A stretch of 33,055 bases of DNA from a virus. Shown here piece after piece: positions 5,165-27,262 of the stretch (the stretch's first letter is position 1; each line of letters opens with the position of its first letter). The stretch spans positions 1 through 33,055 of the IMG/VR virus record IMGVR_UViG_3300031753_000028; one strand, given 5' to 3'. Below the pieces are notes generated by a model. It saw only the letters and a program-made list of their open reading frames with translations, was not told the origin of the DNA and searched no databases. A program made the translations under genes and the position numbers.

Positions 5165-5192
5165 AGGACCCGGCCCAGTAGAGGAGAGGGAA

Positions 5193-8319: not shown

Positions 8320-8387
8320 TCGCTTGGGGCGCAGCAAGTACCGTGAAACTCTGTAAATTCTCGCAATTATGTAGGGAGTGGATCCAA

Positions 8388-8825: not shown

Positions 8826-8837
8826 GAGGATAGCGAG

Positions 8838-9448: not shown

Positions 9449-9606
9449 GCCCGGAAGAAAAAGACTTGCGTATTGAACGTTGGGTGGAGCGCTCTAAGCG
9501 TGTGATTAAACAACAGAGGAAACTCAGGCGCGATTTTTGGATCAACATTCTGACTGGGGGCGCGCTGCTGTTTCTGGCGATGATTTTCCTGGAGATTGTG
9601 ACGTGA
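9445..9606 (+). CDS. Small membrane protein with basic cytoplasmic part
   Basis: A 53-residue protein: a charged N-terminal helix (ERWVERSKRVIKQQRKLRRD) then one membrane span (about 33-52, INILTGGALLFLAMIFLEIV). Four-base overlaps join it to both neighbours. Unknown function. Confidence 0.6.
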   Translation: MSPEEKDLRIERWVERSKRVIKQQRKLRRDFWINILTGGALLFLAMIFLEIVT

Positions 9607-9839
9607 CCAGGGAAGAAATATTAAGGGTAACCAGGAACGTGACCAAAGAGGGAATCTTAAGAGTAATGGAGGCCGCCATGATCGAGCTTGGTCATAATGC
9701 AGCGTGGTGGGATCGTGCGGAAGCCGCTTTCTATGCTATCAGCTTTATGGGCGGAGCCATAGTGGATAGGCATGAACTCGAGCTTTTAAAGAGTACTTAC
9801 GGGTTCCCCCTGCCAGACCTTACGGAACCACAGGAATGA
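9603..9839 (+). CDS. Small hypothetical protein
   Basis: A 78-residue protein starting at a GTG that overlaps the previous TGA, with GGAG eight bases upstream. The start shows a short internal repeat (VTREEILRVTRNVTKEGILRV), reflected in the DNA. It is followed by AAFYAISFMGGAIVDRHELELL. No family recognised. Confidence 0.6.
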   Translation: MTREEILRVTRNVTKEGILRVMEAAMIELGHNAAWWDRAEAAFYAISFMGGAIVDRHELELLKSTYGFPLPDLTEPQE

Positions 9840-10162
9840 AGCGATCATTTCGTCCCGACGAAGTTGCAGAACGTTGGCAGTGCTCTAAGCGCCTAGTCTA
9901 CGCTTTAGTTCAAAAGGGAGATTTGCAAGGTTTCAAAATTAGCGGCAAATTGCTTCGTATCTCGATCGAAGCAGTTGAGGCTTACGAAACATGCAACCGC
10001 GGTTCAGGGCTGTCCTCTTCCGAGGCTGGTATTACGCAGCTTGGCGAGAGCGTGGCGAAACCCGTCGAATCTCACTCCGTACCAAAGATCGTGATGCTGC
10101 CGAGCGGGGACTTCGAAGTTTTGCCGAGCAATACGAAATCGTCAACCGGCCGCAAACCATAA
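9836..10162 (+). CDS. xis: Excisionase-like helix-turn-helix protein
   Basis: A 108-residue protein. Residues 4-51 (SFRPDEVAERWQCSKRLVYA then GFKISGKLLRISIEAVEAYE) match the MerR-like winged helix of phage excisionases and helix_turn_helix_17 proteins, which bend DNA at attachment sites. The remaining 57 residues are encoded in DNA that is also the integrase start in another frame, and look unstructured. Placement just before the integrase supports the excisionase role. It could also be a simple regulator. Confidence 0.7.
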   Translation: MKRSFRPDEVAERWQCSKRLVYALVQKGDLQGFKISGKLLRISIEAVEAYETCNRGSGLSSSEAGITQLGESVAKPVESHSVPKIVMLPSGDFEVLPSNTKSSTGRKP

Positions 10163-11010
10163 CGGTGGAGTTTGTCTGGAATGGGTATCGCGAAACGCTT
10201 AAGGGCAGACCTGCTTATAATACGATGGGGTTTGAGGCATCGGCAGTATTGGCAAGCTTTGGCTTATGCCATGCGGATCAAATCATCGATCAAGATTGCT
10301 TGGGATACATCGAGAGAAGACGAGCATCAGGTCGTAGAGATGGGACTATTGCCACAGAACTCGGACGACTTAGGAGCGCGCTAAAATGGGCAGAGAGAAA
10401 GAACCTGATAGCCAAGGCGCCTTTCATATCCCGTCCGGCTATGTCGCCACCAAGGGATTTGCGACTAACTCGGACACAGGCGAGGGATTTCCTATCTTCT
10501 TGTGTCACCCCGCACATAAGACTGTTCGTGATCTTGTCAATGACAACCGGGGGCCGGGCTGGCGCATTGCTTGGCTTGACGTGGAACCAAGTGGACCTCG
10601 GGAGGAAGGTGATAGATCTACGGTCTCCGTCAAGGGGATTACCGTCCCTTCCGATTGGCTTAAAAAAGGGCAGGGCAGTAGTTCCGATCAACAGAACCCT
10701 GCTGGAAGCCCTTTTAGAGGCGCGCACGAACTCATTAAGCCCCTTCGTGATTGAATGGGATGGTAGACCAGTCAAATCAGTTAAAAAGGGCCTGCAAGCC
10801 GCCGGACGGCGTTCTGGGCTACCCTGGGTCACTGCCCATGTATTCCGCCACAGCGCAGCATCATGGATGGCCGAGGCTGGAGTTAGTATGGATCGAATCG
10901 CTGCCTACCTAGGGCACGTCGACAGTCGGATTACCTCTAAGGTGTATGCCCGTTTTAGTCCTGACTACCTGAGGGACGCGGCCGAGGCGCTGGAGATTGA
11001 CCACAAATGA
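9991..11010 (+). CDS. int: Tyrosine recombinase integrase
   Basis: A 339-residue site-specific recombinase that would integrate and excise the phage. The N-terminal arm-binding domain is seen as GWYYAAWRERGETRRISLRT; the core-binding helices span roughly 70-150. Catalytic residues are in order: R189 (TTGGRAGALLGL), K225 or K226 (GLKKGRAVVPI), H283 and R286 (HVFRHSA), H309 (YLGHVD) and nucleophile Y319 (SKVYARF). It overlaps the excisionase gene by 172 bases in another frame. The ATG at 9991 gives the usual N-terminus for this family, so the overlap appears real. A tRNA-derived attachment site lies 290 bases downstream. Confidence 0.95.
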   Translation: MQPRFRAVLFRGWYYAAWRERGETRRISLRTKDRDAAERGLRSFAEQYEIVNRPQTITVEFVWNGYRETLKGRPAYNTMGFEASAVLASFGLCHADQIIDQDCLGYIERRRASGRRDGTIATELGRLRSALKWAERKNLIAKAPFISRPAMSPPRDLRLTRTQARDFLSSCVTPHIRLFVILSMTTGGRAGALLGLTWNQVDLGRKVIDLRSPSRGLPSLPIGLKKGRAVVPINRTLLEALLEARTNSLSPFVIEWDGRPVKSVKKGLQAAGRRSGLPWVTAHVFRHSAASWMAEAGVSMDRIAAYLGHVDSRITSKVYARFSPDYLRDAAEALEIDHK

Positions 11011-11204
11011 AGCTAATTATTTACGCCGATGCCGATAAATTGATCCTGGCCGTTAGGGCCGCAAAAGGGTTAGACGAAGATAAAAGGGAGACCATTTTTG
11101 TATTCGAAGATGGAACCACATTCTTCGTTAGTAGAAACAAAAATGGAAGCTTAACCGTTAGGCAAGAGAGGGGTGGCATAAAGAGCGCTCCGGTGTTCAA
11201 GTGA
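11007..11204 (+). CDS. Small hypothetical protein
   Basis: A 65-residue protein, start overlapping the integrase stop (ATGA). Alternating strands such as MKLIIYADADKLILAVRAAK and TIFVFEDGTTFFVSR suggest a small mixed fold. Not recognised. Last gene before the attachment site. Confidence 0.6.
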   Translation: MKLIIYADADKLILAVRAAKGLDEDKRETIFVFEDGTTFFVSRNKNGSLTVRQERGGIKSAPVFK

Positions 11205-11238
11205 ACAGTCCACAGAGACATACAAGGGACAAAATGGC

Positions 11239-11276
11239 ACCAAATGCGCAACCAAATTAACATGAAGATACCAAAA
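11239..11276. other. Candidate integrase arm sites beside attP
   Basis: Three direct ACCAAA-type repeats (ACCAAAT at 11239 and 11251, ACCAAAA at 11270) lie in the gene-free stretch 11205-11300, on the integrase side of the tRNA-like core. Spaced direct repeats beside a core are what arm-type integrase sites look like. The motif is short, so this is tentative. Confidence 0.4.
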
Positions 11277-11300
11277 GTCCTTAGATTCCAATAGAACCTA

Positions 11301-11349
11301 TCCCTTCACATGGGAGGGGTCACAGGTTCAATCCCTGTCGCGCCCACCA
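11301..11349 (+). other. attP: Attachment-site core: 3' half of a tRNA gene
   Basis: The sequence from the anticodon stem to CCA of a tRNA is present and no 5' half. The anticodon stem is TCCC/GGGA, with loop TTCACAT, giving anticodon CAC (Val). The T arm is ACAGG-TTCAATC-CCTGT (11322-11338); the acceptor strand CGCGCCC is followed by A and CCA. The base before 11301 breaks the stem (A opposite G), so homology starts there. tRNA 3' halves are classic cores for tyrosine integrases, restoring the host tRNA on insertion. Phage-like genes on both sides suggest attP rather than attL/attR. Confidence 0.75.
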
Positions 11350-11399
11350 ATAATATCAATAGGTTAATGGCAGAGAAGAACAAAAGAGGGGGTGTTCAA

Positions 11400-11828
11400 A
11401 TGAACACGGAATTCTACGATCCATTCCAGATAGATCATTTAAGAGAGCGCATCGCCAAGCTTGAACAAATATGGATCTTGCATGAGCACGAATTGGAAGA
11501 GCGCATCGCCGCGCTTGAGAAACACTTTCAGGAGGAAATTCTTTTGCTCTCAGCATCTACTTCGCGAACTGAGCTACATAAGCGCATTGCCGCACTTGAG
11601 GAGATTATCGGGCAAACGGTAGCGGCTCATGATCGTATCGACTCTCTCGCGAGAGACTGTTTCATCTATGATGGTAGAATTTCTAGTCTGAAAGAACGCA
11701 TCGCCACGCTCGAAACCCAATTTTCGGAGTTTAATGAACTGCCGGATATGCAACACGAAATCAATAAATCCACCGCAGAACGCATCGCCGCGCTTGAGGA
11801 CAAGGTCCACCTGCGCCGCGGATGTTAA
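11400..11828 (+). CDS. Coiled-coil protein with repeated RIAALE units
   Basis: A 142-residue protein. The unit (E/K)RIA(A/K/T)LE occurs five times (beginning near residues 16, 35, 61, 99 and 125), and the DNA of these units is also similar (GAGCGCATCGCCNNGCTTGA). A long coiled coil, probably oligomeric, is predicted. GAGGGGG lies upstream of the ATG at 11400. No function is recognised. It is the first gene past attP. Confidence 0.6.
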   Translation: MNTEFYDPFQIDHLRERIAKLEQIWILHEHELEERIAALEKHFQEEILLLSASTSRTELHKRIAALEEIIGQTVAAHDRIDSLARDCFIYDGRISSLKERIATLETQFSEFNELPDMQHEINKSTAERIAALEDKVHLRRGC

Positions 11829-11871
11829 TCCAACACAAATTTGCCCATCTCCAACATCATTCATTTTAAAG

Positions 11872-11900
11872 GTCTCCCACCGTAGCAACACGGAGGAGAC
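11872..11900 (+). promoter_or_regulatory. Hairpin covering a ribosome binding site
   Basis: GTCTCC (11872-11877) pairs with GGAGAC (11895-11900), and CCGT (11880-11883) with ACGG (11890-11893), around loop AGCAAC. The right side contains GGAGGAG, the Shine-Dalgarno for the ATG at 11902, so the fold would repress translation. Second such leader in the window. Confidence 0.5.
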
Positions 11901-11901
11901 A

Positions 11902-12096
11902 ATGAATAGATTATGGATTGTTTTGTCTGATATATGTCAGATAATAAAAGGGCAGATTAAGTTTATATTGATTTGTATCATCATAGGTGCGGCGCTATTG
12001 TGGCCATACCCCGTGATTGCTTATTACCCGCTCATGGGGATACCGATATTCATAATAATGGTGGCGTTGGCTATGAGTAGTCATGAGAAATGGTAA
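11902..12096 (+). CDS. Small two-span membrane protein
   Basis: A 64-residue protein with spans at about 20-41 (FILICIIIGAALLWPYPVIA) and 44-58 (LMGIPIFIIMVALAM). Strong GGAGGAG ribosome site, hidden in the hairpin upstream. Function unknown; a membrane role in lysogeny or infection exclusion is conceivable. Confidence 0.6.
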   Translation: MNRLWIVLSDICQIIKGQIKFILICIIIGAALLWPYPVIAYYPLMGIPIFIIMVALAMSSHEKW

Positions 12097-12319
12097 GATG
12101 ATGAAATCAAAAATTATTTATGAAGCATACACTAGAGCCACATACGAGACAATTTTTGTTAGGGTCTCCGTCGCAAACGGTATGACGGAAATTCAAGCTA
12201 CAGGCTGTGAAGAAATTGTAATCGTTCCGGATGGCCAGGCAGTCCTATTTGAAATAGGCGCGCGTAGTACAGAGATCCCGATTAGAATTAGGGCCTCTCG
12301 CACCGAAACCATGGAGTAG
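12083..12319 (+). CDS. Small hypothetical protein
   Basis: A 78-residue protein (MRNGKMMKSKIIYEAYTRAT at the start) that overlaps the gene before it by 14 bases. The ATGs at 12098 and 12101, just after that gene's stop, are equally possible starts; none has a strong ribosome site. Strand-rich (TIFVRVSV, EEIVIVPDG, AVLFEIG). Not recognised. Confidence 0.55.
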   Translation: MRNGKMMKSKIIYEAYTRATYETIFVRVSVANGMTEIQATGCEEIVIVPDGQAVLFEIGARSTEIPIRIRASRTETME

Positions 12320-12328
12320 CCTGGAGAA

Positions 12329-12442
12329 ATGATAGATATGACGGATATGTTGTTGCTCGGGCTTGTCGGACTGCTCCTCGGCTTTGCGGCAGGATATTGG
12401 TTCGGCTGGAAAGATGGCTGTAAAGATCGTGATTATTGTTAA
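12329..12442 (+). CDS. Small single-span membrane protein
   Basis: A 37-residue protein: MIDMTDMLLLGLVGLLLGFA starts a span, followed by a charged Cys-containing end (WKDGCKDRDYC). GGAG lies close to the first ATG; the second (12338) is better spaced. It converges with, and overlaps by four bases, the leftward gene ending at 12439. Confidence 0.5.
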   Translation: MIDMTDMLLLGLVGLLLGFAAGYWFGWKDGCKDRDYC

Positions 12443-12669
12443 GCTCTCAGAGACGTAATATTCGAGACCGGAACTTCAGGCGGCTTCCGAGTTCTTTTCG
12501 CCCGCTCTGCAATATCAAGAACGATAGCCGCAAGCGCGTTCATCTCGGCCTCTTCGGTTTCGGAATCGCCGTCATTTGTGCAGCAGGCGATCGCACACGC
12601 GACGGGAATAAGCTTACGAAGATCCCTCTCGAACCTATTTCGGAATGTATGAACCTTCACGTTTGCCAT
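12439..12669 (-). CDS. Small hypothetical protein, last gene of the late operon
   Basis: A 76-residue protein beginning MANVKVHTFRNRFERDLRKL. GAGGGGGAAG lies just before the ATG, which decides the start over the frame's earlier Met. The middle has a CAIACC segment and an acidic patch; the end is basic. Not recognised. It overlaps the ribbon-helix-helix gene by 35 bases. Confidence 0.6.
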   Translation of the reverse strand: MANVKVHTFRNRFERDLRKLIPVACAIACCTNDGDSETEEAEMNALAAIVLDIAERAKRTRKPPEVPVSNITSLRA

Positions 12670-12814
12670 GATCTTCCCCCTCAAGCCATTCGAAATATTC
12701 TGCAAGAATGTCCGTTATGATTGCGGAAATTGGCATCTGTTCCTTATCAGCCTCAGCCTGCACCATTGCTAGAATGTCCGAAGGCAGCGAGATTTGGACA
12801 ATTTTTTCGGTCAT
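12635..12814 (-). CDS. Ribbon-helix-helix (CopG/Arc-like) protein
   Basis: A 59-residue protein. KIVQISLPSDILAMVQAEAD then MPISAIITDILAEYFEW gives the strand-helix-helix pattern of dimeric RHH DNA-binding proteins, with the strand VQISLP as the DNA-reading element. The ATG at 12814 overlaps the phosphoesterase stop (ATGA); an earlier Met at 12907 would be inside that gene. It could regulate late genes or be part of a small control pair with the next gene. Confidence 0.7.
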   Translation of the reverse strand: MTEKIVQISLPSDILAMVQAEADKEQMPISAIITDILAEYFEWLEGEDHGKREGSYIPK

Positions 12815-14963: not shown

Positions 14964-15830
14964 TTAGGTTGAGTGCTGCGCGGGAATTTGTATTTTCCCA
15001 AGCAGATCGGCAACTTCGGACATCATGGCTTTAACCAATGGCTGCAGTTGCGCGATTTGAGCATCGATCTCAGCTCGTTGCGCCATAAGCGCTTTAAGCT
15101 GCTCAACCGATGATGTTGATTGAACTGGTATTGGAGATGGTTTAGTATCAGGTTCCGCTGCTAGTTCCACTACTCCCGTATTTATTGCGGGTATGAGGAC
15201 CGGGGGCTTTCTGTTGATGACAAGGCTTGCAACCAGCATCACTATACCGGTTCCAACCCACATTAAAATGTGGCTGGGCGGGATATCTTTTAGTAGGTAT
15301 TGGAGTAATGGCGCAGACGCGACGAGAACGCCACCAATTGATGCTGCCGCTATATTTGGCGCAGCTACCGGCTCGGTTGGCGTAACCTGTGGAAGGGTAT
15401 GCATATGATCCAATAGCGCATGCGCATAGGTTATTCGATGATCTAGCCCTGCCGCTGCCAAATTTGGCCGTTCATATTGCACCATAACATTGGCGGTTAG
15501 CGTCTCGAGGGACTTCTTCCCCGCAACCAAATCCGCCCATAAACGAGGATAATCACGTTGGCATTCGGTTTTGAAAAATTGCGCTTGGACTTGGAGCGTA
15601 TTCCAATTCGCGAGACGTTCAAGCTCCGTCAGCCGGCTCAGACGCCATTGCATGACACCATCGGAACCGTGGTCTTTCGCTCCAAGGGTCAATGGGCGCA
15701 ACAGGTTCTCTTGCCACCCATTGCCGCCTACCGCGCAAGCGCTTGGGAGCGGAAGCGGTCCTGGGCCAGCCATTAGGGCTTGAATAAATATGCGACCGCG
15801 CGCGAGAATATCTGATTGAGTGTCGGGCAT
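14964..15830 (-). CDS. Lysozyme-like endolysin with membrane span and coiled coil
   Basis: A 288-residue protein. Residues 36-70 contain GNGWQENLLRPL, then GSDGVMQWRLSRLTEL, the pattern of phage lysozyme-like glycosidases, with a catalytic Glu in QEN and the QW...R segment that closes the site. Hydrophobic segments occur around 155-180 (IAAASIGGVLVASAPLLQYL) and 185-205 (ILMWVGTGIVMLVASLVIN). A coiled coil follows near 245-285 (AQRAEIDAQIAQLQPLVKAM). An endolysin with a C-terminal membrane anchor is unusual; the enzyme may be held at the membrane. AGAGGAA gives the start at 15830. Confidence 0.75.
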   Translation of the reverse strand: MPDTQSDILARGRIFIQALMAGPGPLPLPSACAVGGNGWQENLLRPLTLGAKDHGSDGVMQWRLSRLTELERLANWNTLQVQAQFFKTECQRDYPRLWADLVAGKKSLETLTANVMVQYERPNLAAAGLDHRITYAHALLDHMHTLPQVTPTEPVAAPNIAAASIGGVLVASAPLLQYLLKDIPPSHILMWVGTGIVMLVASLVINRKPPVLIPAINTGVVELAAEPDTKPSPIPVQSTSSVEQLKALMAQRAEIDAQIAQLQPLVKAMMSEVADLLGKIQIPAQHST

Positions 15831-15849
15831 ATTTCCTCTAATATTGAAT

Positions 15850-15885
15850 GGATCCCGCACCGCCAAGAGTGACGGTGCGGGATCC
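15850..15885 (-). terminator. Perfect hairpin between fibre and lysis genes
   Basis: GGATCCCGCACCG (15850-15862) and its exact complement (15873-15885) form a 13-bp stem with a 10-base loop, in the gap after the giant gene's stop. No U-run follows on either strand, so it is either a weak terminator, an mRNA-stabilising hairpin or a processing site. Confidence 0.6.
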
Positions 15886-15894
15886 AATTATTAG

Positions 15895-18800
15895 TTATGG
15901 ATGGTAGGTGAGAACCAGAACGCCTGGCGCTCCAGCTGTCGCAGTAGTTCCGTTATTGAGGCTTCCTGCACCATAAAGCCCAGGGGAGCCTATGAGATTA
16001 GAGCCGCCCCCGAAACCACCCGGACCACCACCTGACCCGACTGATATGGCTGACCACTCGTTACCGTTGCCGCCGTTGCCGCCAGCAGCATTGGTTCCTC
16101 CGCCGCCGCCACCGCCGCCATTAGTTCCGGACACGCCAGCAACCCCTGTAAGGCCGCCAGTTCCACTACCAGAGCCGCTATTGTTGTTTCCGCCATTGCC
16201 GCCTGTAGAGGTCGTCGTAGTGGCGCCAGCAGTCCCGCCGCCGTTGCCGCCACCTCCGCCACCGCCGCTAGCGGCCGCATTAGCGCCTCCGCCGGCACCG
16301 CCTACACCTAACGGACCGCCGGCTCCGCCGGCACCAGGCGAGGCTGCGAATGGGGCTACTGACGAAGCCGCGCCACCATGGTTGCACGTTCCGGTTCCAC
16401 CCGTTCCGCCCGCGCCGCCAGCTGATCCTGTTCCCGGAGAGCCGCCATGCGCGAGCAGGGTGCTTGTGTTCCAAGTCGTGTTAGTGCCAGCGAGGCCCGC
16501 AACACCTTGACCAACAGTGTAGGAGACCGTCGTAACACCAGGATTAGCAACAGTGAAGTTGGAGATTTTGCAGTATTCGGCTCCGCCTCCTCCATAACCA
16601 GGCACAGGTGAGCCGCCACCGGCTCCGATTCCTTCGATAGTATTATTCGACGAATTCCAATCCGGAGGAGATGTCCATGTGGTGCCAGAAAACAGGGCCT
16701 GCTGGCAGAAACCACCTGGAATCGAAGTCCATCCGGGTTGGCAACTAGGTATAAAGATAGCCGCAGCGGCAGCAACTGGGGCATCATTAACCCAACTACA
16801 TGTGAGCGGGGGGCCAGCCTGGCAATCAAGACGCGGTACAATGATTGTTACCGAAGATGGCGCAGATGTATCACATGTAACCGAGTATGTCGTAGTTATC
16901 GAAGGCGTGACTTGCACGCTTCCAGAAGTCGCACCATTGGTCTGAAAATTCACCCCCGTGCAAGCAGACGCATTGACTGAAGACCACGAAATTGTGGCCG
17001 CATTGCTCGGGACTGCCGTCACGTTAGACATTATCGATGCTGACGAACTGGCATTCACAGTAACCGTAGTGTTTGCCGGCGTAGTTGCCCCACCAGCATC
17101 GCATGCAACCGAATAGGTAGTTGTTGCGGTTGGGCTGACCACAAAAGTTCCCGACGCAGCATTCGCAGTAGGGAATCCAGTTCCTACGCAACGTGTGCCA
17201 TTAGAGGACCACGCTAGTGTGCTGTTATCTCCCGAAAGCGCCGCCGGCGAACCAGTGTTTGCTGGATCAAAAGTGGTCGTTGGTCCCCACGCCGTGAACC
17301 CGGATGGCGGGGTTACAATATTAAATGTGGGGCCGGTATTTAAAGATAGAGATTCACCATTTACGGCACCAACGTCTGCCGTAATAAAATACGGCCCAGC
17401 ATTTAGACCGGCAATTGAATACCCTCCAGTGTTGGTCGCCGGATTCTGATTGGCTATGATATCGTTGTTCCAGCCACCGCTATGAGTAACATTTTTTACC
17501 CAAAGTTTTTGATTTGTGAAATCAACCGCGAAACCGATAACATCGTTGGCGACTCCTGTTACGAAGTTCGTATTGGTGTGCGCATTGTTTATAAAGATAT
17601 TACCATTGTTCCACTCCCAACCAATTCCGTTTAAATCAACGCCAACAAAATTTGTCAGACTTTCTGACGAATTGGCAATGCCTACCATCGTGTTTGCTGA
17701 ACTAATTCCGGTTCCGAGCTTAACCTCGAAATAGGCTTGTGCTGGAGCCGCTCCGGAAGAAGTCGTCGAACGAGATGCCCCAATAGATGCGCCAGTGGAA
17801 TTAGTAAGAACTGAATTCATCGATATCGTAGGCGGGGTAGCGGAGAGGCTTGCCGTCACTGGGTTGACAGTAACATTGGTGCTGGCCGGGGTAGATACTC
17901 CTCCATTGTCACACACGATCGTGTAGGTCGTTGTTTGCGTCGGGCTAACTAGCAACATGCCTGACGGAGCAGTGCCAGGCCCTACGCCCGTGCAACGCGT
18001 GCCATTCGAAGACCATGTTAGCGTGCTGCTCTGTCCATTTAGGATTGTCGATGGATTGGCAGATATGGTATCTGTTACCGGAGACACGCTGACCGTGGCG
18101 CTAGCATTAACCGGAGTTCCACCACTATCACAAGCGATGCTGTACGTAGTGTTGGCTGTCGGGTGAACAACAAGCGTTCCAGTCGTGAGGTTGCTGGTTG
18201 AGAAATTGGTTCCCACGCACTTGACTGTGGCGTTTGACATCCAATTCAGCGTCGACGCGCCGCCGCTTACAACAGTTGTTGGCGATGCGGTCAATGATGC
18301 GCTTAGCACGCTGCTGACTGTGACCGTTTGACTTGCAGTCGCGGCCACCCCTCCGGCATCGCAAGATATGCTATAGGTTGTATTTGCGCTCGGAGTCACC
18401 ACTAGTGAACCTGAAGCCGGGTTTCCAGTTCCGGTAGAAAACCCAGTTCCTATGCAGCGGGTAGAATTAGTTGAAGACCATGTTAGAGTGCTACTATTCC
18501 CGGCATTGATCGTTGCGGGATTGGCAGAAAGAGAAGCCGTCGGCATATTTAGAACTTCTACGCCGTCTATCTTTGCATTGGCATCCACAGATGCCGCCGT
18601 AGCAGTTAAGGTAATAGTAATCTTTCCAAACTGGTCCGCGACCTGGCTGAAGCATTCAACAACTGCCTTGTGTGCTGCGCCGGCTGTGGAGAAAATATCG
18701 AAGTTTGAAAGAACCGTCGTACCATTTAATGCAATATTAAAGATGCGCTTACCGACGAACTCGTCGGCTGGCCAATCTTCAGTGAAATGGAGTCTCACAG

Positions 18801-20553
18801 AATAGGCCTTATTCGGCGTCAATCCATCTATCGTATAAGTAAGAGGATTATCCCAACGTTCCGTGCGGTAAACGGCTGTGGGAGCCGGATTCACCACCAG
18901 AGTAGTATCAACGGTGCCGGTTGGATTATTATTTGCTATGCCGCCATGGACCACCGTAAAGTGAGTATCGGCGATGAATGATGCTTGCGGTGGGGTGCCA
19001 GCTATCGCCGGACCACCAGCATTGATGCTGACCGGACCCAAACCAGGGCAGGGCGGTAACGGAGATATTCCGCACCCTGCAACCGCAACATTGAACGCGC
19101 CCATGTTGGGAGGGCTCGGAGGAGTCTGGCCATCCGGAGTCATGAACGCAAAGTGAGAGGAGGTTATATTGGTTACGCCTGAACCTAGAGCTGGCGATCC
19201 GCTCTGCGGATGCATATCTCTCGGACTGCCGTTAAGATTTGCGACGTTAGGATTAACCCCCAAAAGAGGATTCGCAGCCGCTACGGCAAGGCCGCCCTGA
19301 AAGCTAGCTCCACCGCTGACCGTGTCGAAAGACTCGTTATGCGTGATGCCGGTCGCGTTGGCGCCGACGACATTGTACGCAGCTTGAGAACCCGTCCCCA
19401 GCCGGATTGCCAAATTGTTTTGCAATGTGCTTGATGTGCCGTTTTGATTCCAGCCGAGTGAGTTGATGCCGGCCGATTCAAATTCCTTACAGCCGCGATT
19501 CGTTACCACTGTGGGATCTAAACAGTTATTTACAAGCGTGTTGTTTTCAAATACCCCATTGCCGGAGGTATATTGTAAAATGCCCTTGCCGCCTATGTTA
19601 TAGACATAATTGTAGGCTACTAGCGCCTGGCCCGTGTATTGTGTATGGGGAAGACTTTGAGTATGAGCCCAATCATCAAGGATAATCCCCTCGCCATCGG
19701 TGTGTGCGGCACCAATCGCTGCAGTCTCGCCGCCGTCGTGGATCACATTGCCTATGATCTGAACGACATATGGATCACTTTCCCACGTTCCGGTTCCCGT
19801 AGTAGCTAGTTCCTCGTAGAAATCGAGGCCTGAGGTATGACTAGCATTTACCCCAGAAAAGTCATATGCCTCGTTTGCAATCAGATAATCATGATCATTC
19901 GATCCAGAGGTTCCGAGAACACCAGCGCCGCAGCTATGAATAATGCTGTTCATAACGATATGATGGCTGCTGTTATTTGCAAACATTTGGTTGCAGGAGT
20001 ATGTGTTTGTATTAGTTTCTTTGTAACCGGTGTACCCTTGGACGTTGTGCCCGTCTATTTCAAATCCATCTAATGCAATATACATGGCATTAAGATTGAT
20101 CGGGTTATTGGCGGTTGAACCGATATAACAACCATGATTTACCGAGCACACATAGGTGATAAAACCATTTGCTTGGTTGGCAGTACCCCCGCGGCTAAAC
20201 GTTGCTGTGGTGGTTTTATTATAGGCAGTCCAGCCACTTGAGCCGAGAGCCGTCTCTGTTGGCGTAGTGCCCAAAACATTGACGCAATCACCACCGGTTA
20301 GCGTAGTTCCTGTGGCACCTATACTCGTAGCCGCATCTGCGCCCCATGGTGTAGCGCAATTAGAAGCGCCATATGGATTGGTACCGGCAGAAGCGCCGCA
20401 AGTAGCTGTGTCAGAACCCGAGGGGCTAACATAGAAGTTGCGAGTGCATGTAAGTGGCGATGGATAGTGCGCGGGCGCAGCAGTCGTTGCAAAGGCCTGC
20501 CCGGAAAAAAGAAAAGCACCAAACGCGGCGCCAATTAAAGCCTTGAAATTCAT
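15895..20553 (-). CDS. Giant Sec-exported multidomain adhesin-like protein
   Basis: A 1552-residue protein. Residues 1-22 (MNFKALIGAAFGAFLFSGQAFA) form a Sec signal peptide, unusual among phage tail genes. In order: right-handed beta-helix (about 35-470, e.g. GNGVFENNTLVNN), a malectin-like sugar-binding domain (about 505-670, YRTERWDNPLTYTIDGLTPN), Ig-like repeats each ending in TTTYSVACDAGG-type strands (about 673-898), a fourth Ig repeat split by a SPRY-like domain (about 915-1095), a fifth Ig repeat to about 1241, a cysteine-bearing link, and a Gly-rich domain (1310-1552) ending GAPGVLVLTY. The last resembles the end of the neighbouring fibre. It may be an exported surface or biofilm-type protein of the lysogen, or a tail component. 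AAGGAAA fixes the start. Confidence 0.8.
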   Translation of the reverse strand: MNFKALIGAAFGAFLFSGQAFATTAAPAHYPSPLTCTRNFYVSPSGSDTATCGASAGTNPYGASNCATPWGADAATSIGATGTTLTGGDCVNVLGTTPTETALGSSGWTAYNKTTTATFSRGGTANQANGFITYVCSVNHGCYIGSTANNPINLNAMYIALDGFEIDGHNVQGYTGYKETNTNTYSCNQMFANNSSHHIVMNSIIHSCGAGVLGTSGSNDHDYLIANEAYDFSGVNASHTSGLDFYEELATTGTGTWESDPYVVQIIGNVIHDGGETAAIGAAHTDGEGIILDDWAHTQSLPHTQYTGQALVAYNYVYNIGGKGILQYTSGNGVFENNTLVNNCLDPTVVTNRGCKEFESAGINSLGWNQNGTSSTLQNNLAIRLGTGSQAAYNVVGANATGITHNESFDTVSGGASFQGGLAVAAANPLLGVNPNVANLNGSPRDMHPQSGSPALGSGVTNITSSHFAFMTPDGQTPPSPPNMGAFNVAVAGCGISPLPPCPGLGPVSINAGGPAIAGTPPQASFIADTHFTVVHGGIANNNPTGTVDTTLVVNPAPTAVYRTERWDNPLTYTIDGLTPNKAYSVRLHFTEDWPADEFVGKRIFNIALNGTTVLSNFDIFSTAGAAHKAVVECFSQVADQFGKITITLTATAASVDANAKIDGVEVLNMPTASLSANPATINAGNSSTLTWSSTNSTRCIGTGFSTGTGNPASGSLVVTPSANTTYSISCDAGGVAATASQTVTVSSVLSASLTASPTTVVSGGASTLNWMSNATVKCVGTNFSTSNLTTGTLVVHPTANTTYSIACDSGGTPVNASATVSVSPVTDTISANPSTILNGQSSTLTWSSNGTRCTGVGPGTAPSGMLLVSPTQTTTYTIVCDNGGVSTPASTNVTVNPVTASLSATPPTISMNSVLTNSTGASIGASRSTTSSGAAPAQAYFEVKLGTGISSANTMVGIANSSESLTNFVGVDLNGIGWEWNNGNIFINNAHTNTNFVTGVANDVIGFAVDFTNQKLWVKNVTHSGGWNNDIIANQNPATNTGGYSIAGLNAGPYFITADVGAVNGESLSLNTGPTFNIVTPPSGFTAWGPTTTFDPANTGSPAALSGDNSTLAWSSNGTRCVGTGFPTANAASGTFVVSPTATTTYSVACDAGGATTPANTTVTVNASSSASIMSNVTAVPSNAATISWSSVNASACTGVNFQTNGATSGSVQVTPSITTTYSVTCDTSAPSSVTIIVPRLDCQAGPPLTCSWVNDAPVAAAAAIFIPSCQPGWTSIPGGFCQQALFSGTTWTSPPDWNSSNNTIEGIGAGGGSPVPGYGGGGAEYCKISNFTVANPGVTTVSYTVGQGVAGLAGTNTTWNTSTLLAHGGSPGTGSAGGAGGTGGTGTCNHGGAASSVAPFAASPGAGGAGGPLGVGGAGGGANAAASGGGGGGGNGGGTAGATTTTSTGGNGGNNNSGSGSGTGGLTGVAGVSGTNGGGGGGGGTNAAGGNGGNGNEWSAISVGSGGGPGGFGGGSNLIGSPGLYGAGSLNNGTTATAGAPGVLVLTYHP

Positions 20554-20572
20554 AATAAATTTCCTTGTAAAA

Positions 20573-20869
20573 TTAAGCCGCAACAACTGCGTCTGTAGAT
20601 TGAACACGCCAAAGCGCATTCGAGAAATAAACAGGAACGCCGGTACCTAGTCCTGCGCCCTCACCAACCTTTCGCCCATTAGTAGCGTAAGCTCTCATAC
20701 CTTCAGTTCCCGCCGGAAGCGTGGCAACTGTGAATGTGTTGAGACCTTGGGAGTCAAGAATGTCCTGCGCCACGCCACGCAAGACACCGGGGGTAATCGC
20801 ACCAACCGTGTTGTCTGCAAGCGACGTTCCTATTTCGGTCGTAAGAGCCGCGTATGTTTTAAGAGTCAT
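20573..20869 (-). CDS. Small fibre-associated structural protein
   Basis: A 98-residue protein. The N-terminal ALTTEIGTSLADNTVGAITP and VLRGVAQDILDS pattern is typical of short phage fibre/attachment segments, and the C-terminal YATNGRKVGEGAGLGTGVPV occurs in phage tail fibre ends. AGGAACG precedes the ATG. It probably belongs to the host-binding complex with its neighbours. Confidence 0.65.
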   Translation of the reverse strand: MTLKTYAALTTEIGTSLADNTVGAITPGVLRGVAQDILDSQGLNTFTVATLPAGTEGMRAYATNGRKVGEGAGLGTGVPVYFSNALWRVQSTDAVVAA

Positions 20870-20882
20870 TTAATCGTTCCTA

Positions 20883-22643
20883 TTAACCAAATTCGATCAC
20901 GACAATAAGACCATCGCCTCCTGGCATTCCTGGAACGCTAGGTGCATGGGCAGAGCCGCCACCACTTCCGTTTGATCCTATTGTTGGGTTTCCACCAGGA
21001 ACGTTGCTACCAGCCGCGCCACCTCCGGCCCAGAAGGATGAACCGCCATTTCCGCCCTGATTACCACCAGTTGGATATTCACCAGCGCCACCCTGCAACC
21101 ACAAATTTCCAGCAAGTCCGGTTCCGGGAAGAGTATCAGCGAAGCCAGAAGGCCCCCATCCTCCAGGACCACCGCTTGCCTGTGCGTAAATACCGAATAT
21201 GGTAGCACCTCCGCGATATCCGCTCAGTGTTGGTACTGTCTGCTGTGCGCCGCCATGTCCTATTGTAAAGGCAACAGAAGCCACGCCAACCATAGACATG
21301 AATGTAAATGCTGTACCGCCTCCCCAGCCACCGGCAGCATTATTTTGTGGGCCGGCACACCCAGCAGACCCGCCGCCGCCCGTTGCAAATACGATAGCTG
21401 AACGCGTGCCAGTGGTTGGGACATATGTCCCGGAATACCCAACTGTGAATGGTGTAAGAAATTGGACGTTAAGAAGGGAAAGAGTTAGCCCATTTCGGAT
21501 ATTGGTAAGAAGTTGCGCCCATGTTTCAACACGGTGATGGGTATCGGCTGCGCTGTAGAACCCAAATAGATCTGTATTGGCGATAATCGGCTGATCGACC
21601 AACCCGGGCAAATACCAATTGACAACGGCGCCCCCGGTGACGTTGATGCCTTCTCCAGAGCTTGCCGATAGATTGCCGACAGCGGTGGCAATTTTTGAAT
21701 TCATCAATCGATAAGAGGTGCCGTCCCAATTCAAGTGCATCATAAAATTGCCAGGAACATCGCCGGAAACAATCGCCGCTCCTGATGCATGAATTACAGA
21801 ATAGGGTCCTAAAAGTCCGGCCGAACCTACGATCGTAATCACCATAGCGCCGGTATTGGTAAAGTTTATTCTTCTGACGAACAAATTGGCAGGAGGCGCC
21901 GCTGGAACAGGAATTGGCGAAACGACTATCCCGTTACCGGCTCCAGCATCAATGCATTGCGCGAACGTGCCTCCCTGCACCCAATAAGGAATCTGCGGCA
22001 ATTTCTCCAAAATGAATGGCGCGGCCGCATATTGCGATATCTGCGCACTTGATAGCTGTGTCGCTCCATTGGCGACTGTAACAACCCACATCCCGACATA
22101 GCCGACATCTGGAGCAGGTGTAACCTGGGTTCCTGCGGTTGCTGCAACGCCAGCTTTTGCGACTAGACTTATAAGCCCCTGCCTCAGGGTAGGCTGAGAT
22201 ACGCCGGAACCGGCAGGGCCTGAGAAAGGAATAAGCGGATTTGCGGAATTGAAATAAGGCAGTACCTGAGAGCCTGTGTCTTGCTCCGAGAACGCTGCTT
22301 CGATTAAATAATTGATCGCCTGCCCGGATGTTCCAGGTGGCGTCAGTGTAAGATTTACAGGATCAAGGCTAATGCCTTGTTTGATTATCTGATGGACAGT
22401 ATCTAGCGAAAGGGAACTCCAAGATGTGCTATCGACAGGCTCGAGTTGATATATTGAACCAGGATTAATCGTTATCGCAAGAGACGCAGGGATTGTCGGA
22501 ATACAGCTGAGTCCATCTACTACGGTGCCTGTTCCGAGGATACCCTGCGCGAGATAGCCCTGCGCTATCATTTTCGCCTTCTCGGCACCCAACCAAGTAG
22601 TTGCTGTTGGTTGCTCGGTAGGGTAGACAGTCGTCCTATCCAT
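20883..22643 (-). CDS. Tail fibre with glycine-rich tip
   Basis: A 586-residue protein. The start (MDRTTVYPTEQPTATTWLGA then YLAQGILGTGTVVDGLSC) reads like a baseplate-attached fibre N-terminus. The middle is strand-rich. From about residue 400 it becomes Gly-rich (FATGGGGSAGCAG, GGAGEYPTGGNQGGNGGSS) and ends PGGDGLIVVIEFG, as in phage adhesins whose tip is made of packed polyglycine helices. It shares this end type with the giant protein. GAGG precedes the ATG at 22643; the TTG at 22655 is less likely. A terminator lies just upstream. Confidence 0.75.
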   Translation of the reverse strand: MDRTTVYPTEQPTATTWLGAEKAKMIAQGYLAQGILGTGTVVDGLSCIPTIPASLAITINPGSIYQLEPVDSTSWSSLSLDTVHQIIKQGISLDPVNLTLTPPGTSGQAINYLIEAAFSEQDTGSQVLPYFNSANPLIPFSGPAGSGVSQPTLRQGLISLVAKAGVAATAGTQVTPAPDVGYVGMWVVTVANGATQLSSAQISQYAAAPFILEKLPQIPYWVQGGTFAQCIDAGAGNGIVVSPIPVPAAPPANLFVRRINFTNTGAMVITIVGSAGLLGPYSVIHASGAAIVSGDVPGNFMMHLNWDGTSYRLMNSKIATAVGNLSASSGEGINVTGGAVVNWYLPGLVDQPIIANTDLFGFYSAADTHHRVETWAQLLTNIRNGLTLSLLNVQFLTPFTVGYSGTYVPTTGTRSAIVFATGGGGSAGCAGPQNNAAGGWGGGTAFTFMSMVGVASVAFTIGHGGAQQTVPTLSGYRGGATIFGIYAQASGGPGGWGPSGFADTLPGTGLAGNLWLQGGAGEYPTGGNQGGNGGSSFWAGGGAAGSNVPGGNPTIGSNGSGGGSAHAPSVPGMPGGDGLIVVIEFG

Positions 22644-22653
22644 TAAAAACCTC

Positions 22654-22681
22654 AAAAAAAATCCCGGCGATGGCCAGGATT
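22654..22681 (-). terminator. Rho-independent terminator after the tailspike gene
   Basis: On the minus strand AATCCTGGC-CATC-GCCGGGATT (with one T.G pair) is followed by a run of Ts. This is a standard intrinsic terminator. It lies downstream of the tailspike gene and ends just before the fibre gene's ribosome site, so the fibre would need read-through or its own promoter. The 147 bases at 22682-22828 hold no convincing gene. Confidence 0.8.
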
Positions 22682-22828
22682 GTTGATTAAAATAGGAGAA
22701 TTCGCTAAATCTAGCTTAGGGGCGGATCGGCGCTCTGCTGCGGCGTTGCCTCATGAGCGATGTCGAAAAAGAGACTTTGGCAGCTAAGAGTCTGTGGCGC
22801 ACAGTCGACGGCGCTCACGGACTCCCGA

Positions 22829-24793
22829 TTAGAATTCTATTGCTGTAATCTTCACATTGACAACTTGAGCAGTGAAAGAAGCATTAGTCGTTTCAATAGC
22901 AATATCCAACCAAACCGCAACATTTGTAGCTAAACCAGTGACTATGGCGTGAGTTGCAAACGAATTAACATAATTCTGGCCGTCAAATGTACATTGCTCT
23001 GTAGTGCTTATTTGCGTTCCCGTCACAGCAGCTCCATTCACTGGCGCCGTTCCGGTTCCGCGCCTAATCATAAGAAAGGCACCCTGCCCAGCCGAAGCGG
23101 CTGTGGGAGAAAAAACTCCGCCTGTGGCGACTACTAAAATTCTACCGGTAACCAATGGGGTTATGGATGCGGTACTACCAATTCCCATCATCACGAAGGC
23201 CGCTGCGCTAGTCGTTCCGGCTGGGCTTGTATTTCCGGAATCGACGAAGGCTGCCGCCACCGAGGCTCCCGCCGTAACATTGCCTGACGCATCAGTCAGC
23301 AGAGTCCCGGCCCCGTAGTGGCTTAATTGCAGCGTGCCGCCAAGAACAGATTTGGTCTCTGCGGTAGCCGGAAAATTCCCGATGAATTGCTTGGTTGTAC
23401 CGGAGCCGCCGTCTATCATACTAGCGGTTACATTGTCGTTGAGATCGTTCCCTATAATGGCGTAATTGTTTGAGGTTCCGGCGGCTATCTCAATCCCATA
23501 TTTTTGTGTTGCGGCCGAGGTTGGTGATTTCCCAATTCGGCATGTTCGAATGTCAAAACTATTTACGTTTGCCGCAACCTTAATTCCAGAGAGTGTTCCT
23601 GAGGACGATGTTGAGTTCCCGCCGATGTAACATCCATCAAAAAGAGAATAAGTGCTGGTGGTAGCTTGCAAATTTATGCCGGAAAGCGCATTATCAAGAA
23701 CCTGGCATCCGTGGAGTTGCGCACTCGTAATTGTTCCGGTAGTTCCGAAATTCACGCCGTTACCGCTGTTTAGTGACGAGCGCAATGCGCTAAATCTTAC
23801 CCCTTGAACAGTACCGCCTGCTGCAGGGTTTATAAAGACCCCGTCATTCGTACAGCTCGCAACGGCTGTGTTGTTCACCGTAACTCTTTGGACAACGGTG
23901 GCGTTAGGAGGATTTATAAGGATGCCAACTCCTGTCGATAAGAAATGACTGTTGTCAACCCAGCAGGAATCTGTAGCTAAAATCTGTAGCCCATTTAGGC
24001 ATTGGGTCCCAGTAGTGTACACTAGCGCCTTATCAAGGAAATGATTATTACCTCCATTTATGATTATGCCGGTTCCAGTTGTCACCTCCGGATTCTTGAC
24101 TGTGACACTATCCATAACAACGAATGTCGAGGAGATCGCATTTACGCCGATAAATGAACCTTCGATCTCAACCTGGCGGAGGGCCACAAGCGACACGGTA
24201 TTGAGCTTGATTGCGGCTCCAGCGGTGTTGACTACCGACGACCAGATGGATAGATCGGAAACGGATAGGTAGCTAGTTCCGCTACCAAAGCTGAACGTGT
24301 CCGCCGTTGTCGATGATTGCTGTATAACGCTTGTGCCGATTCCGGCGCCCATAAGTTTCACATTGCTTATCGTGATCGGAATTTGGGCGCTGACAAGATA
24401 AGTTCCTGGAGGAAAGTATATAATTCCTCCAGTTGAAGGAAGGGCGGCTATTGCGCTATTGATTGCTCCTGTATCATCGGCGATACCGTTTCCAACCGCG
24501 CCATAGCCTACTACATCAATCCATGGCTTGGGTCCCTTGACCGCAAAATTACCAGGAAGAATAGGGGGAACTTGTGTGGCAGTAAGATGAGAGGCGCCGT
24601 CAAGAGTCGCGATTCCATTTGGCGCTCCTAGGGTTGTTAGATTCGGGATGCCAAGGAGGCTCAACCAGTGTGCATTATCGATCTGAGCAAGTACGGTTGC
24701 GCTATATGCCGAAACGGCAGTTGCGGGAAAGTATTGCGCAAAAGTAGCATTGAGATCAGCCGACTTTAAAAGCTGGCCTTGTTGCCAAATCAT
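22829..24793 (-). CDS. Tailspike with pectate-lyase-like beta-helix
   Basis: A 654-residue protein. Residues 1-85 are a baseplate-binding segment (MIWQQGQLLKSADLNATFAQ start). VVGYGAVGNGIADDTGAINS (94-113) to YFPPGTYLVS is the signature entry of a pectate-lyase-3 right-handed beta-helix, which continues to about residue 470 (repeated NNG/GI turns). A separate C-terminal strand-rich domain follows. Such spikes bind and often cut surface polysaccharide. No active-site residues can be assigned by eye. The gene follows four bases after the tail protein I-like gene. Confidence 0.8.
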   Translation of the reverse strand: MIWQQGQLLKSADLNATFAQYFPATAVSAYSATVLAQIDNAHWLSLLGIPNLTTLGAPNGIATLDGASHLTATQVPPILPGNFAVKGPKPWIDVVGYGAVGNGIADDTGAINSAIAALPSTGGIIYFPPGTYLVSAQIPITISNVKLMGAGIGTSVIQQSSTTADTFSFGSGTSYLSVSDLSIWSSVVNTAGAAIKLNTVSLVALRQVEIEGSFIGVNAISSTFVVMDSVTVKNPEVTTGTGIIINGGNNHFLDKALVYTTGTQCLNGLQILATDSCWVDNSHFLSTGVGILINPPNATVVQRVTVNNTAVASCTNDGVFINPAAGGTVQGVRFSALRSSLNSGNGVNFGTTGTITSAQLHGCQVLDNALSGINLQATTSTYSLFDGCYIGGNSTSSSGTLSGIKVAANVNSFDIRTCRIGKSPTSAATQKYGIEIAAGTSNNYAIIGNDLNDNVTASMIDGGSGTTKQFIGNFPATAETKSVLGGTLQLSHYGAGTLLTDASGNVTAGASVAAAFVDSGNTSPAGTTSAAAFVMMGIGSTASITPLVTGRILVVATGGVFSPTAASAGQGAFLMIRRGTGTAPVNGAAVTGTQISTTEQCTFDGQNYVNSFATHAIVTGLATNVAVWLDIAIETTNASFTAQVVNVKITAIEF

Positions 24794-24796
24794 TTG

Positions 24797-25762
24797 TTAT
24801 CCCAAAAGACTTAAATCGAGAAAGAAATCAAAATCGACTGTACCAGCCCTAATAGGCGGCGGTGCAATATATACCCAGCAAGTCACACCGGCAGCACGGG
24901 TTGCCTCGATCGTGTCGTAAATATCTTGATTGGTGACCGTTCCCTGAATTTGCGATAAATCAGCAAGAGCGAACGCGCCACCGGTTCCGAATAATCCGTA
25001 TAGATAGCCAAATCCGTTCGAGAATCCTTTGCTAAATGCCACCCCTAACATCGCGGAGGTAACACCTTGCGGAACGCCCCATCCGCCGGAATAAGAATCA
25101 AAGCCAGCAAGGCTCGGAATGCCGGCGCCGATTGGCTCGACTGCCGTGATAAACATGGTATACGGTAGATCGGCACCCCATGCGCCACCGGCATCAAATG
25201 CAAATAGAACGCCCCACCCTCCGCTATCCTGCGGATTCATTGGCTCGAAGATGGTTACTTCGGTTTGCGTTAGATCTTCGACAGCCTGCTCAACGCCATG
25301 GCGGGTGACCTTTTCTCGGAATATTTCCTTCTGAATGGTTGCTATTAAAGAGGAATCAGTCTGACTCGGCTTGCGCTTTATGCGAAGGCCAAAGAAATCA
25401 TAGGCTGACAGATCGAGGAAAAAGTCTGACGACGTCGTGAGGCGAGTTTGATTCTTGACGTATTGAAATAGGGAATAGATCCACGCAAGTCCGTCCCCAA
25501 GGCCACCTTTGATCGCAGTTATAAACGAGGCGTCTAATACATTAAACGAGCCGTCATTCCACCACCCAGTGGGAAGCAACCGCGTCAAGCGGCCGATCAT
25601 ATCGTTTGAATTTCCGGTCGCAATCGGAGGCGCGGGCGGCACAACTAATGGACCAGGCACCAAGGCAGAGGCCGGAAATGGCGGCCAGACTTGCGTGTGC
25701 CAAACAAGAGCCTGATAGGGGCGCCGCCGGTTTTCCCAAAATGACTCCGGTGCAAACGCCAT
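24797..25762 (-). CDS. Tail protein I-like baseplate protein
   Basis: A 321-residue protein following baseplate J, the position of P2 gpI/DUF2612-type proteins at the baseplate rim that attach fibres. It contains DFFLDLSAYDFFGLRIKR and SSLIATIQKEIFREKVTRHG, and ends with TRAAGVTCWVYIAPPP, typical of this class. A proline-rich start (FPASALVPGPLVVPPAPPIA) is specific to it. Start is ATG at 25762 with weak ribosome site. Confidence 0.7.
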   Translation of the reverse strand: MAFAPESFWENRRRPYQALVWHTQVWPPFPASALVPGPLVVPPAPPIATGNSNDMIGRLTRLLPTGWWNDGSFNVLDASFITAIKGGLGDGLAWIYSLFQYVKNQTRLTTSSDFFLDLSAYDFFGLRIKRKPSQTDSSLIATIQKEIFREKVTRHGVEQAVEDLTQTEVTIFEPMNPQDSGGWGVLFAFDAGGAWGADLPYTMFITAVEPIGAGIPSLAGFDSYSGGWGVPQGVTSAMLGVAFSKGFSNGFGYLYGLFGTGGAFALADLSQIQGTVTNQDIYDTIEATRAAGVTCWVYIAPPPIRAGTVDFDFFLDLSLLG

Positions 25763-25766
25763 ATCT

Positions 25767-26900
25767 TTACACGACCGTTAGTGTGCCAATCTTGATCACA
25801 TTGCGAAGCGTTCCGACGAGATCAATATTATTGCCGTTAATCGTAAGCGGTGATATGTTCAAAACCCCGGGCGTTGCGTCGAAGATCACTTGCGCAAGGC
25901 GGTTGTAATAAAGCGGCTGCCCTAGAGGCAATGTGTTCACATAGTCCTGAACCGCTGTATCGACGACGCCGACAACAAAATTGTGATCGTATCCAGGTGC
26001 GGATACCAATATGATACCGATATTTGCATATAGAATCACCGGAGGGAACACGCCCCACATGATTCCACCGGCGCGCGTCGCTCCGACAGCCAGTGACGCA
26101 TTGGTTAGGAAGGTTGCATTTGGGGCACCGGTCCCATCGTCGACAGTGACAGTCAGGAATCCTAGATTTGCGGTAAGATCAGCGTTAAAGTTTTCGAGCA
26201 CAGTAACTTGCGCGCCAAGCTGTGTAGTTGTGACGGAAAACTCAATCGCCGCAACCGTTCCCTTGCTCAAAGCCGCAATGAAACCAATGAACCTGCTGCG
26301 ATATGCGGCATCAGCTTCAGATGCGAATCCGTTAGTAAACGCTATGGCATTAACAACTGTGTCGATGCCAACAAGCGGTGTCGTGATCTGACTCAGTGCG
26401 CCGGCAACAACGTTTCCAGCCGTGCCTACGGTAGTGCATTGCACGGGAACCGTGATGCTCGCGATATTCGCTGGCATATTGTAACCAGCTATGGGAGTTC
26501 CGACGTAATTAGGATTCCCTAGATCGACTGTGACTGTAAATGTTGCGGTGCCATCAATGCTTTGAATCGTCGCGCCTATCGGAATAAATGGCGAGTTAGT
26601 TCCGGCTGTATTGCGTGAAAATGTAACCGTTCCAGTGGCTGATTGCGCACCTAGCCGCAGAAAATTCCAATCGGCCATCCAGCTGTCGAGATCGGAACCC
26701 TGCGAAGTTGACGCGCGCGTTAATTGAGCTATCTGCAGAGCAATTGCCTGAAGCCACAGCAAAATTCCGCCGAACCCCTCAGCGAGGGCTCTAAGGCTGG
26801 AGCCAATCGAAAAGTCAAGAATGGTGTTCGCGCGGCCTTGTATCCCCGTCGCGATGTTCGTCACAATCGACGTGAATGATTTTGTCGGGATAGTAGCCAT
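25767..26900 (-). CDS. Baseplate J-like wedge protein
   Basis: A 377-residue baseplate J family protein. Recognisable features: the N-terminal helix (SIGSSLRALAEGFGGILLWLQ), DLDSWMADWNFLRLGAQSAT, the barrel segment GNVVAGALSQITTP, EADAAYRSRF near 200, and the C-terminal NRLAQVIFDATPGV. It builds the wedge around the hub of a contractile tail, with gp25 encoded just upstream (one-base overlap). Confidence 0.9.
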   Translation of the reverse strand: MATIPTKSFTSIVTNIATGIQGRANTILDFSIGSSLRALAEGFGGILLWLQAIALQIAQLTRASTSQGSDLDSWMADWNFLRLGAQSATGTVTFSRNTAGTNSPFIPIGATIQSIDGTATFTVTVDLGNPNYVGTPIAGYNMPANIASITVPVQCTTVGTAGNVVAGALSQITTPLVGIDTVVNAIAFTNGFASEADAAYRSRFIGFIAALSKGTVAAIEFSVTTTQLGAQVTVLENFNADLTANLGFLTVTVDDGTGAPNATFLTNASLAVGATRAGGIMWGVFPPVILYANIGIILVSAPGYDHNFVVGVVDTAVQDYVNTLPLGQPLYYNRLAQVIFDATPGVLNISPLTINGNNIDLVGTLRNVIKIGTLTVV

Positions 26901-27262
26901 TAAACTGCAATGGTAAGAGAAAGTTGCTGACTATTCCCAGCTGAAGTGTAGCCGATGCTAATAATAAACAGACCACCCGGCTGCTGAACCACGCTAATCG
27001 TAGGAGCAGGGTTGGGCGCTACCGAAGATTCTAGAGCAATTTGTGAACGCACGATGCTTTCAAGAAACTGCGTCGTCATCGGACGTCCTATCTTTTGTGG
27101 TAGGCCAGCACCATAATCCTGGTGAAATACATAGCCACCGACGACCGTGAACAAACGACGTAAAATACGCTGGCGCGCATAGATGTCACCATCTACAAGC
27201 GCAAGGTCATGACTAGGGGAAAGCTTATAGTCAGTGTCCCATTCAAGTGATGGCTCTGGCAT
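26900..27262 (-). CDS. gp25/gpW-like baseplate wedge protein
   Basis: A 120-residue protein of the gp25-like lysozyme-fold family that nucleates the sheath on the baseplate. Features are DLALVDGDIYARQRILRRL, GGYVFHQDYGAGL and SIVRSQIALESSV. It directly precedes baseplate J, the standard contractile-tail order. It lacks enzymatic residues, as expected. Confidence 0.85.
   Translation of the reverse strand: MPEPSLEWDTDYKLSPSHDLALVDGDIYARQRILRRLFTVVGGYVFHQDYGAGLPQKIGRPMTTQFLESIVRSQIALESSVAPNPAPTISVVQQPGGLFIISIGYTSAGNSQQLSLTIAV

Follow-up and report, generated by a model that had tools for sequence, protein, structure and literature searches.

Why a very large gene lying within a phage tail cluster should begin with a predicted secretion signal is the question raised by the locus described here, since both synthesis and assembly of phage receptor-binding proteins and depolymerases are assumed to take place in the cytoplasm. 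The window, i.e. the whole stretch of DNA that was analysed, comprises all 33,055 bases of one IMG/VR virus record, and its right half is a minus-strand tail cluster in the order tape measure, baseplate genes, 654-aa tailspike, fibre with a Gly-rich end, 98-aa gene, giant gene and lysin. The giant gene encodes 1552 aa on the minus strand (15895–20553; ATG at 20553, stop at 15895). These coordinates had been given exactly, without a strand, by an earlier sequence-only reading, and the open reading frame proved to be real.

The giant gene is flanked by fibre-side genes and the lysin, all on one strand. Upstream, a 98-aa tail-cluster gene of no known family (20573–20869, minus) ends 19 nt before the giant start. 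It is preceded by a signal-less, virion-type fibre of 586 aa with a Gly-rich end (20883–22643, minus; start MDRTTVY; PHROG tail fibre families), relatives of which close the tail cluster in many phages, and by a signal-less, pectate-lyase-type tailspike of 654 aa (22829–24793, minus; Pfam PF12708, PHROG tail spike). Downstream lies a Phage_lysozyme2-type lysin (14964–15839, minus; PF18013, E 5e-12) with the start MPDTQS, as in the ortholog described below; the distance from the giant stop is 7 nt to the lysin ORF and about 55 nt to the conserved lysin ATG.

An RBS-like AAGGA was found 5′ of the giant ATG (ACAAGGAAATTTATT-ATG). Residues 1–22 (20488–20553, minus) were predicted as a Sec/SPase-I-type signal peptide with intact n, h and c regions and an AXA site; the N-terminus reads MNFKALIGAAFGAFLFSGQAFA↓TTAA, with predicted cleavage at QAFA↓TT. 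Signal peptides were called with our own rule-based predictor, using upstream ORFs of related tail clusters as control, of which 5/537 were positive, at least two of these five being themselves fibre-type. The ortholog (L002) is located at 8001–12704 of an independent 71-kb viral contig, with 84% identity to the giant protein along its entire length. It has the same start, preceded by AAGGG, and 21/22 identical residues in the signal peptide. Comparison of the two genes gave a dN/dS of 0.16 overall and below 0.3 in each domain, and all 29 cysteines of the giant protein, including one pair per Ig repeat, are conserved, which argues against a chance ORF and indicates purifying selection under which all domains are retained. 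Values of dS were uneven (SPRY 0.25, beta-helix 0.41, Ig repeats 1–3 1.9, Gly-rich end 2.1); parts of the gene were therefore probably swapped between phages.

Most of the domains named by the sequence-only reading were recovered. A right-handed parallel beta-helix occupies residues 30–490 (approximately; 19084–20466, minus), as judged by alignment with exported bacterial parallel beta-helix proteins and by profile matches to solved glycan-active proteins; it contains the family signature HTDGEGIILDDW (residues 284–295; 19669–19704, minus), which hardly varies among cellular and phage relatives. A malectin domain follows at residues 509–652 (18598–19029, minus; PF11721, E 1e-16, 61.8 bits against a cut-off of 23). 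Repeat alignment resolved five Ig-like repeats. Repeats 1–3, with one Cys pair each, cover residues 671–898 (17860–18543, minus). Repeat 4 is split into a first strand (residues 899–911; 17821–17859, minus) and a remainder (residues 1105–1168; 17050–17241, minus), and repeat 5 covers residues 1169–1242 (16828–17049, minus). Between the two parts of repeat 4 lies a SPRY-like domain (residues 912–1104; 17242–17820, minus). When the halves of repeat 4 were joined in silico, they aligned across the junction with the intact repeats 1 and 3 at 60–62% identity. The SPRY block is thus inserted into Ig repeat 4, a direct sign that modules have been shuffled. The domain can be called SPRY-like only: PF00622 matched residues 940–1018 at E 9e-4, but with 19.8 bits it stayed below the Pfam cut-off of 26.3. 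In the comparison with the ortholog, the dS of this block (0.25) was far lower than that of the surrounding Ig repeats (0.6–1.9), and the block has likely been exchanged recently.

The C-terminal end (residues 1286–1552, 267 residues; 15898–16698, minus) is Gly-rich by composition (34.5% Gly), as had been noted earlier, but its description as an adhesin tip is conjectural, the end having no match in a Pfam search and no significant match to the Gly-rich end of the neighbouring fibre. A tip common to the giant protein and this fibre was considered and rejected: the two Gly-rich ends gave no significant alignment, and a decoy bearing the phage's own tip is therefore not claimed. PHROG and Pfam searches gave no virion-attachment domain at the mature N-terminus, where residues 23–30 run straight into the beta-helix. 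No enzymatic residues were identified in the giant protein, and AlphaFold runs on residues 23–670 and 671–1264 with a two-sequence alignment gave no usable structure (mean pLDDT 32 and 47).

Cellular relatives of the beta-helix point to export. Among annotated plasmids these were mainly Rhizobium parallel beta-helix/choice-of-anchor Q proteins. The one inspected, on pRL9 of R. johnstonii, has an RTX C-terminus and is encoded beside genes of exopolysaccharide type, for an O-antigen ligase and glycosyltransferases. Genome relatives comprised two proteins of one alphaproteobacterium with N-terminal signals (L146, L147) and two more of RTX type. All cellular relatives share HTDGxGIIxDD or a near form of it, and identity to the giant beta-helix was 23–37%. 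By this homology the giant beta-helix belongs to a family that bacteria appear to export, with either a Sec signal or an RTX tail. The family profile matched three solved proteins, a fibronectin-III protein (7v6m), a lacto-N-biosidase (6kqs) and a PL6 lyase (6qps), and the glycan-active ones are distant relatives. Beta-helix relatives were rare across 783 sampled genomes, no close prophage of the giant gene was found in the first genome scan, and none of 50,697 isolate phage records carried the beta-helix or malectin part.

An IMG/VR scan with the beta-helix family yielded 19 viral contigs with relatives. A signal was predicted on the beta-helix copies of the window, L002/L150, L151, L153, L155, L156 and L166; the hydrophobic starts of L162 and L165/L168 pass the predictor only without the charge rule. 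L151 has signal, beta-helix and malectin in common with the giant protein, in the same order (44% identity over residues 32–669) and followed by an unrelated C-terminus; these three parts thus reappear together, as a cassette, in a phage that is otherwise different. The L151 gene (3329–5938) is located between the terminase large subunit and portal genes. A C-terminal domain common to L151 and another signal-bearing protein (L050), suspected by eye, was dropped after a non-significant alignment.

Signal-less copies were found as well. In L154 the beta-helix stands behind a phrog_4271 tail protein (E 6e-189), and L152, L157 and L158 have a common N-terminal region of another phage type, with a weak PHROG tail match in L158 only. 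Three contigs carry a signal-bearing together with a signal-less copy (L153/L152, L155/L157 and L156/L160), the latter being clearly tail-type in two of them (not L160). In the tree, L153 and L155 on the one hand and L152 and L157 (with L158) on the other form separate clades with 100/100 support each, while L156 groups with the cellular L146 (99/97). Because the copies of two contigs fall into separate clades, the signal-bearing and the tail-fused use have been kept apart; phages thus appear to maintain putatively exported and tail versions of the beta-helix side by side. On the L153 contig the signal-bearing copy lies on the helicase/DNA polymerase strand, opposite to terminase and portal, and is therefore not regarded as a late structural gene.

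Cysteine content was compared between signal-bearing and signal-less fibre-type proteins. The median was 17.1 per 1000 residues in the former (n = 23, a set assembled by following matches) and 7.2 in the latter (n = 153; Mann–Whitney p 4e-9, the proteins not being independent of each other). Cysteines as proof of export were set aside, as tail-fused beta-helix copies are equally Cys-rich and the beta-helix alone showed no difference between signal-bearing and tail-fused copies. The enrichment supports an oxidising destination, short of proof.

Taken together, the position in the late cluster, the conserved signal, the exported beta-helix family, the glycan-type modules and the conserved cysteines led us to favour, with a probability of about 0.52, a late, exported, disulfide-stabilised, glycan-directed phage protein that acts in soluble form outside the cell. 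From these sequence features we infer export, disulfides, release at lysis and action on polysaccharide. The protein would be made late in infection and moved across the inner membrane by the host Sec system, signal peptidase cutting after residue 22. Its disulfides would form in the periplasm, and it would reach the outside at lysis or, before that, by a type II pathway of the host. Once outside, its beta-helix and malectin domains may bind polysaccharide of the surface or matrix, or cut it, and the C-terminal modules may hold the protein to cell or matrix. The likely benefit would be that progeny are freed from exopolysaccharide and debris, or that glycan receptors are stripped or masked, and the giant protein would be the soluble equivalent of the tailspike on the virion. 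Points against soluble export include the following: Sec alone ends in the Gram-negative periplasm and the giant gene encodes no outer-membrane route, and the late position in the tail cluster would also fit a virion part. Of the proposals made by the sequence-only reading, Sec export and a polysaccharide-related function have gained support. A fibre gene fused to an exported protein, also proposed, comes close to what related loci display, where the same beta-helix is found both signal-bearing and tail-fused; for the giant protein itself, there is support for C-terminal modules of phage type having been joined to an exported protein of bacterial type.

The virion part could be an exported fibre that leaves the cytoplasm via Sec, forms its disulfides while folding in the periplasm and attaches to the virion when lysis mixes the compartments. 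The giant gene occupies a fibre slot, and signal peptides were predicted before tail-fibre-type proteins in L115, L135, L050 and L176 and, with an uncertain start, on a 741-aa PHROG tailspike of a prophage in an Acetobacterales genome (L257), which also encodes a signal-bearing esterase of 558 aa. These clear fibre and tailspike proteins make doubtful the earlier premise that tail fibres need no signal peptide. In L162, four proteins with hydrophobic, signal-like starts stand in a row (2445–9671) after a gp77-type fibre–tail adaptor; the first, a 646-aa spike, overlaps the adaptor gene by 4 nt, which would suit such a fibre. The same applies to a podovirus-like contig (G750; IMGVR_UViG_3300032180_000132; L180) with terminase, portal and virion lysin by PHROG, in which eight consecutive ORFs with hydrophobic, signal-like starts were observed at the tail-fibre position (18711–29915). 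This array stands after the virion genes, with several 4-nt overlaps and Cys-rich long ORFs, and three of its ORFs share a domain of ~110 aa (E 1e-10 to 8e-5) that follows the signal immediately, placed where docking domains would be expected. No signal-less fibre was recognised in G750, the proteins of which are mostly without matches, and its fibre slot is presumably filled by the signal-bearing ORFs; neither the portal nor the shared, docking-like domain led to isolate relatives.

Against an exported fibre in the window speak the two signal-less fibre/spike genes which this phage already has, the mature N-terminus of the giant protein, which opens with the beta-helix and no recognised docking domain, and the signal-bearing copy of L153 outside the structural genes. 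We therefore consider a virion-bound exported fibre unlikely, and hold as somewhat more doubtful still the wider proposal that some tailed phages export fibres via Sec, fold them with disulfides and attach them at lysis, the giant protein and members of the G750 array being examples. No description of Sec-exported tail fibres was found in the open PMC literature, an absence that is weak evidence.

Signal peptides on fibre-type genes are real but scattered. As a general rule of the Acetobacterales prophage family they were rejected, 3/116 downstream slot ORFs (one of the three probably with a wrong start) being positive compared with 1/180 upstream. The slot next to the fibre varies in content, with a glycosyltransferase in L018 and a signal-bearing SGNH esterase (phrog_8480) in L017, the family of which is signal-less in the isolate phages Lo5R7ANS, RHph_N2 and QDWS. 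The L018 slot (15587–17304) holds a GT2-type glycosyltransferase and a formyltransferase-like gene on the other strand, possibly surface-modification cargo. In MAGs labelled Polaribacter and Mycobacterium, fibre relatives of the Acetobacterales-type prophage family were seen (L037, L057); the contigs concerned are probably mis-binned.

The window phage itself is of temperate type, given an integrase-like ORF (9991–11010) and, at the window's left end, a repressor-like HTH (ORFs read by eye). Its host is likely a Gram-negative bacterium of the Acetobacterales kind, as suggested by the baseplate J family, which was found in 121/299 Acetobacterales genomes with an E limit of 1e-30 and in only 1/385 class-wide genomes with an E limit of 1e-60, this one being the centre genome itself; the best matches were about 40% identical. 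Elsewhere in the window, an ORF in which about 30 residues are duplicated in tandem and in frame (VMVGIAGADDDDDGKAASSNGNDSGGDPAP) was noticed at 5763–6476, and a 482-aa GHKL/MutL-like ATPase-type ORF (by eye: ELIDNAIDAGATRID), an unusual cargo for a temperate phage, at 1822–3270.

The temperate lifestyle is in line with the earlier suggestion of a lysogen surface protein, i.e. a prophage-made adhesin or superinfection block displayed by the host, like Lom, an exported protein encoded in the tail-fibre region of lambda. So are two hairpins, both conserved in the ortholog with compensatory changes, that bound the block of fibre, 98-aa gene and giant gene: a strong one just 3′ of the giant stop (15850–15886, minus) and a terminator-like one upstream of the fibre gene (22660–22681). 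The upstream hairpin leaves no room for a promoter behind it and hints at antitermination or attenuation of fibre expression. Promoter-like sites were, however, as frequent as in shuffled sequences (15 vs 14.9), with none above chance; the gene follows its upstream tail gene by only 19 nt and stands just before the lysin, and Pfam and NCBIfam gave no outer-membrane anchor or display domain (no autotransporter, RTX or barrel). A surface protein of the lysogen thus appears improbable, and late expression is the simplest reading. An ordinary cytoplasmic tail fibre with an accidental or unused hydrophobic N-terminus, for which the tail-cluster position and the SPRY and cyanophage Ig matches to phage structural proteins could be cited, is very improbable in view of the signal and start conserved in the ortholog, the signal-bearing relatives recurring on distinct phages and the 29 conserved cysteines.

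The favoured soluble, exported protein can be set beside several known systems. The Rhizobium choice-of-anchor Q/parallel beta-helix proteins (L006 on pRL9) have a homologous beta-helix with HTDGxGIIxDD and are of an exported kind, but differ from the giant protein in having an RTX C-terminus, no Sec signal, no Cys and no malectin, Ig or SPRY parts, and in not being phage-encoded. Phage tail proteins like that of L154 share the beta-helix family and differ by tail-type N-termini and the lack of a signal. WceF of Pantoea stewartii, which the cell exports, has a tailspike-like beta-helix fold and cuts exopolysaccharide (PMC7949094); it is likened here by fold and export, not by homology, and differs in its Tat signal and bacterial gene. 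The GH32 proteins of Bacillus phages SP10, phiNIT1 and SPG24 are free phage-encoded depolymerases proposed to act outside the cell (PMC4595243), polysaccharide-type like the giant protein, but without a classical signal peptide and from another enzyme family. Lys44 of phage fOg44 is a secreted endolysin with a true Sec signal (PMC6116005), which, unlike the giant protein, acts on the cell wall and is not fibre-like. Phage-encoded exported depolymerases and lectins, and exported proteins with a tailspike fold such as WceF (PMC7949094), are thus already known.

A missing signal peptide has been used as support for the phage origin of phage variable proteins (PMC6199706), and the giant protein, with its predicted and conserved signal, departs from this pattern. 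Genes of this kind would be mislabelled as host genes wherever annotation software uses the signal peptide to filter phage genes. One glycan-recognition module appears to be kept by phages both tail-fused and Sec-signal-bearing, sometimes in one genome, and this two-form module points to a soluble, exported means of attacking surface polysaccharides or, as a more radical reading, to fibres that may mature outside the cytoplasm.
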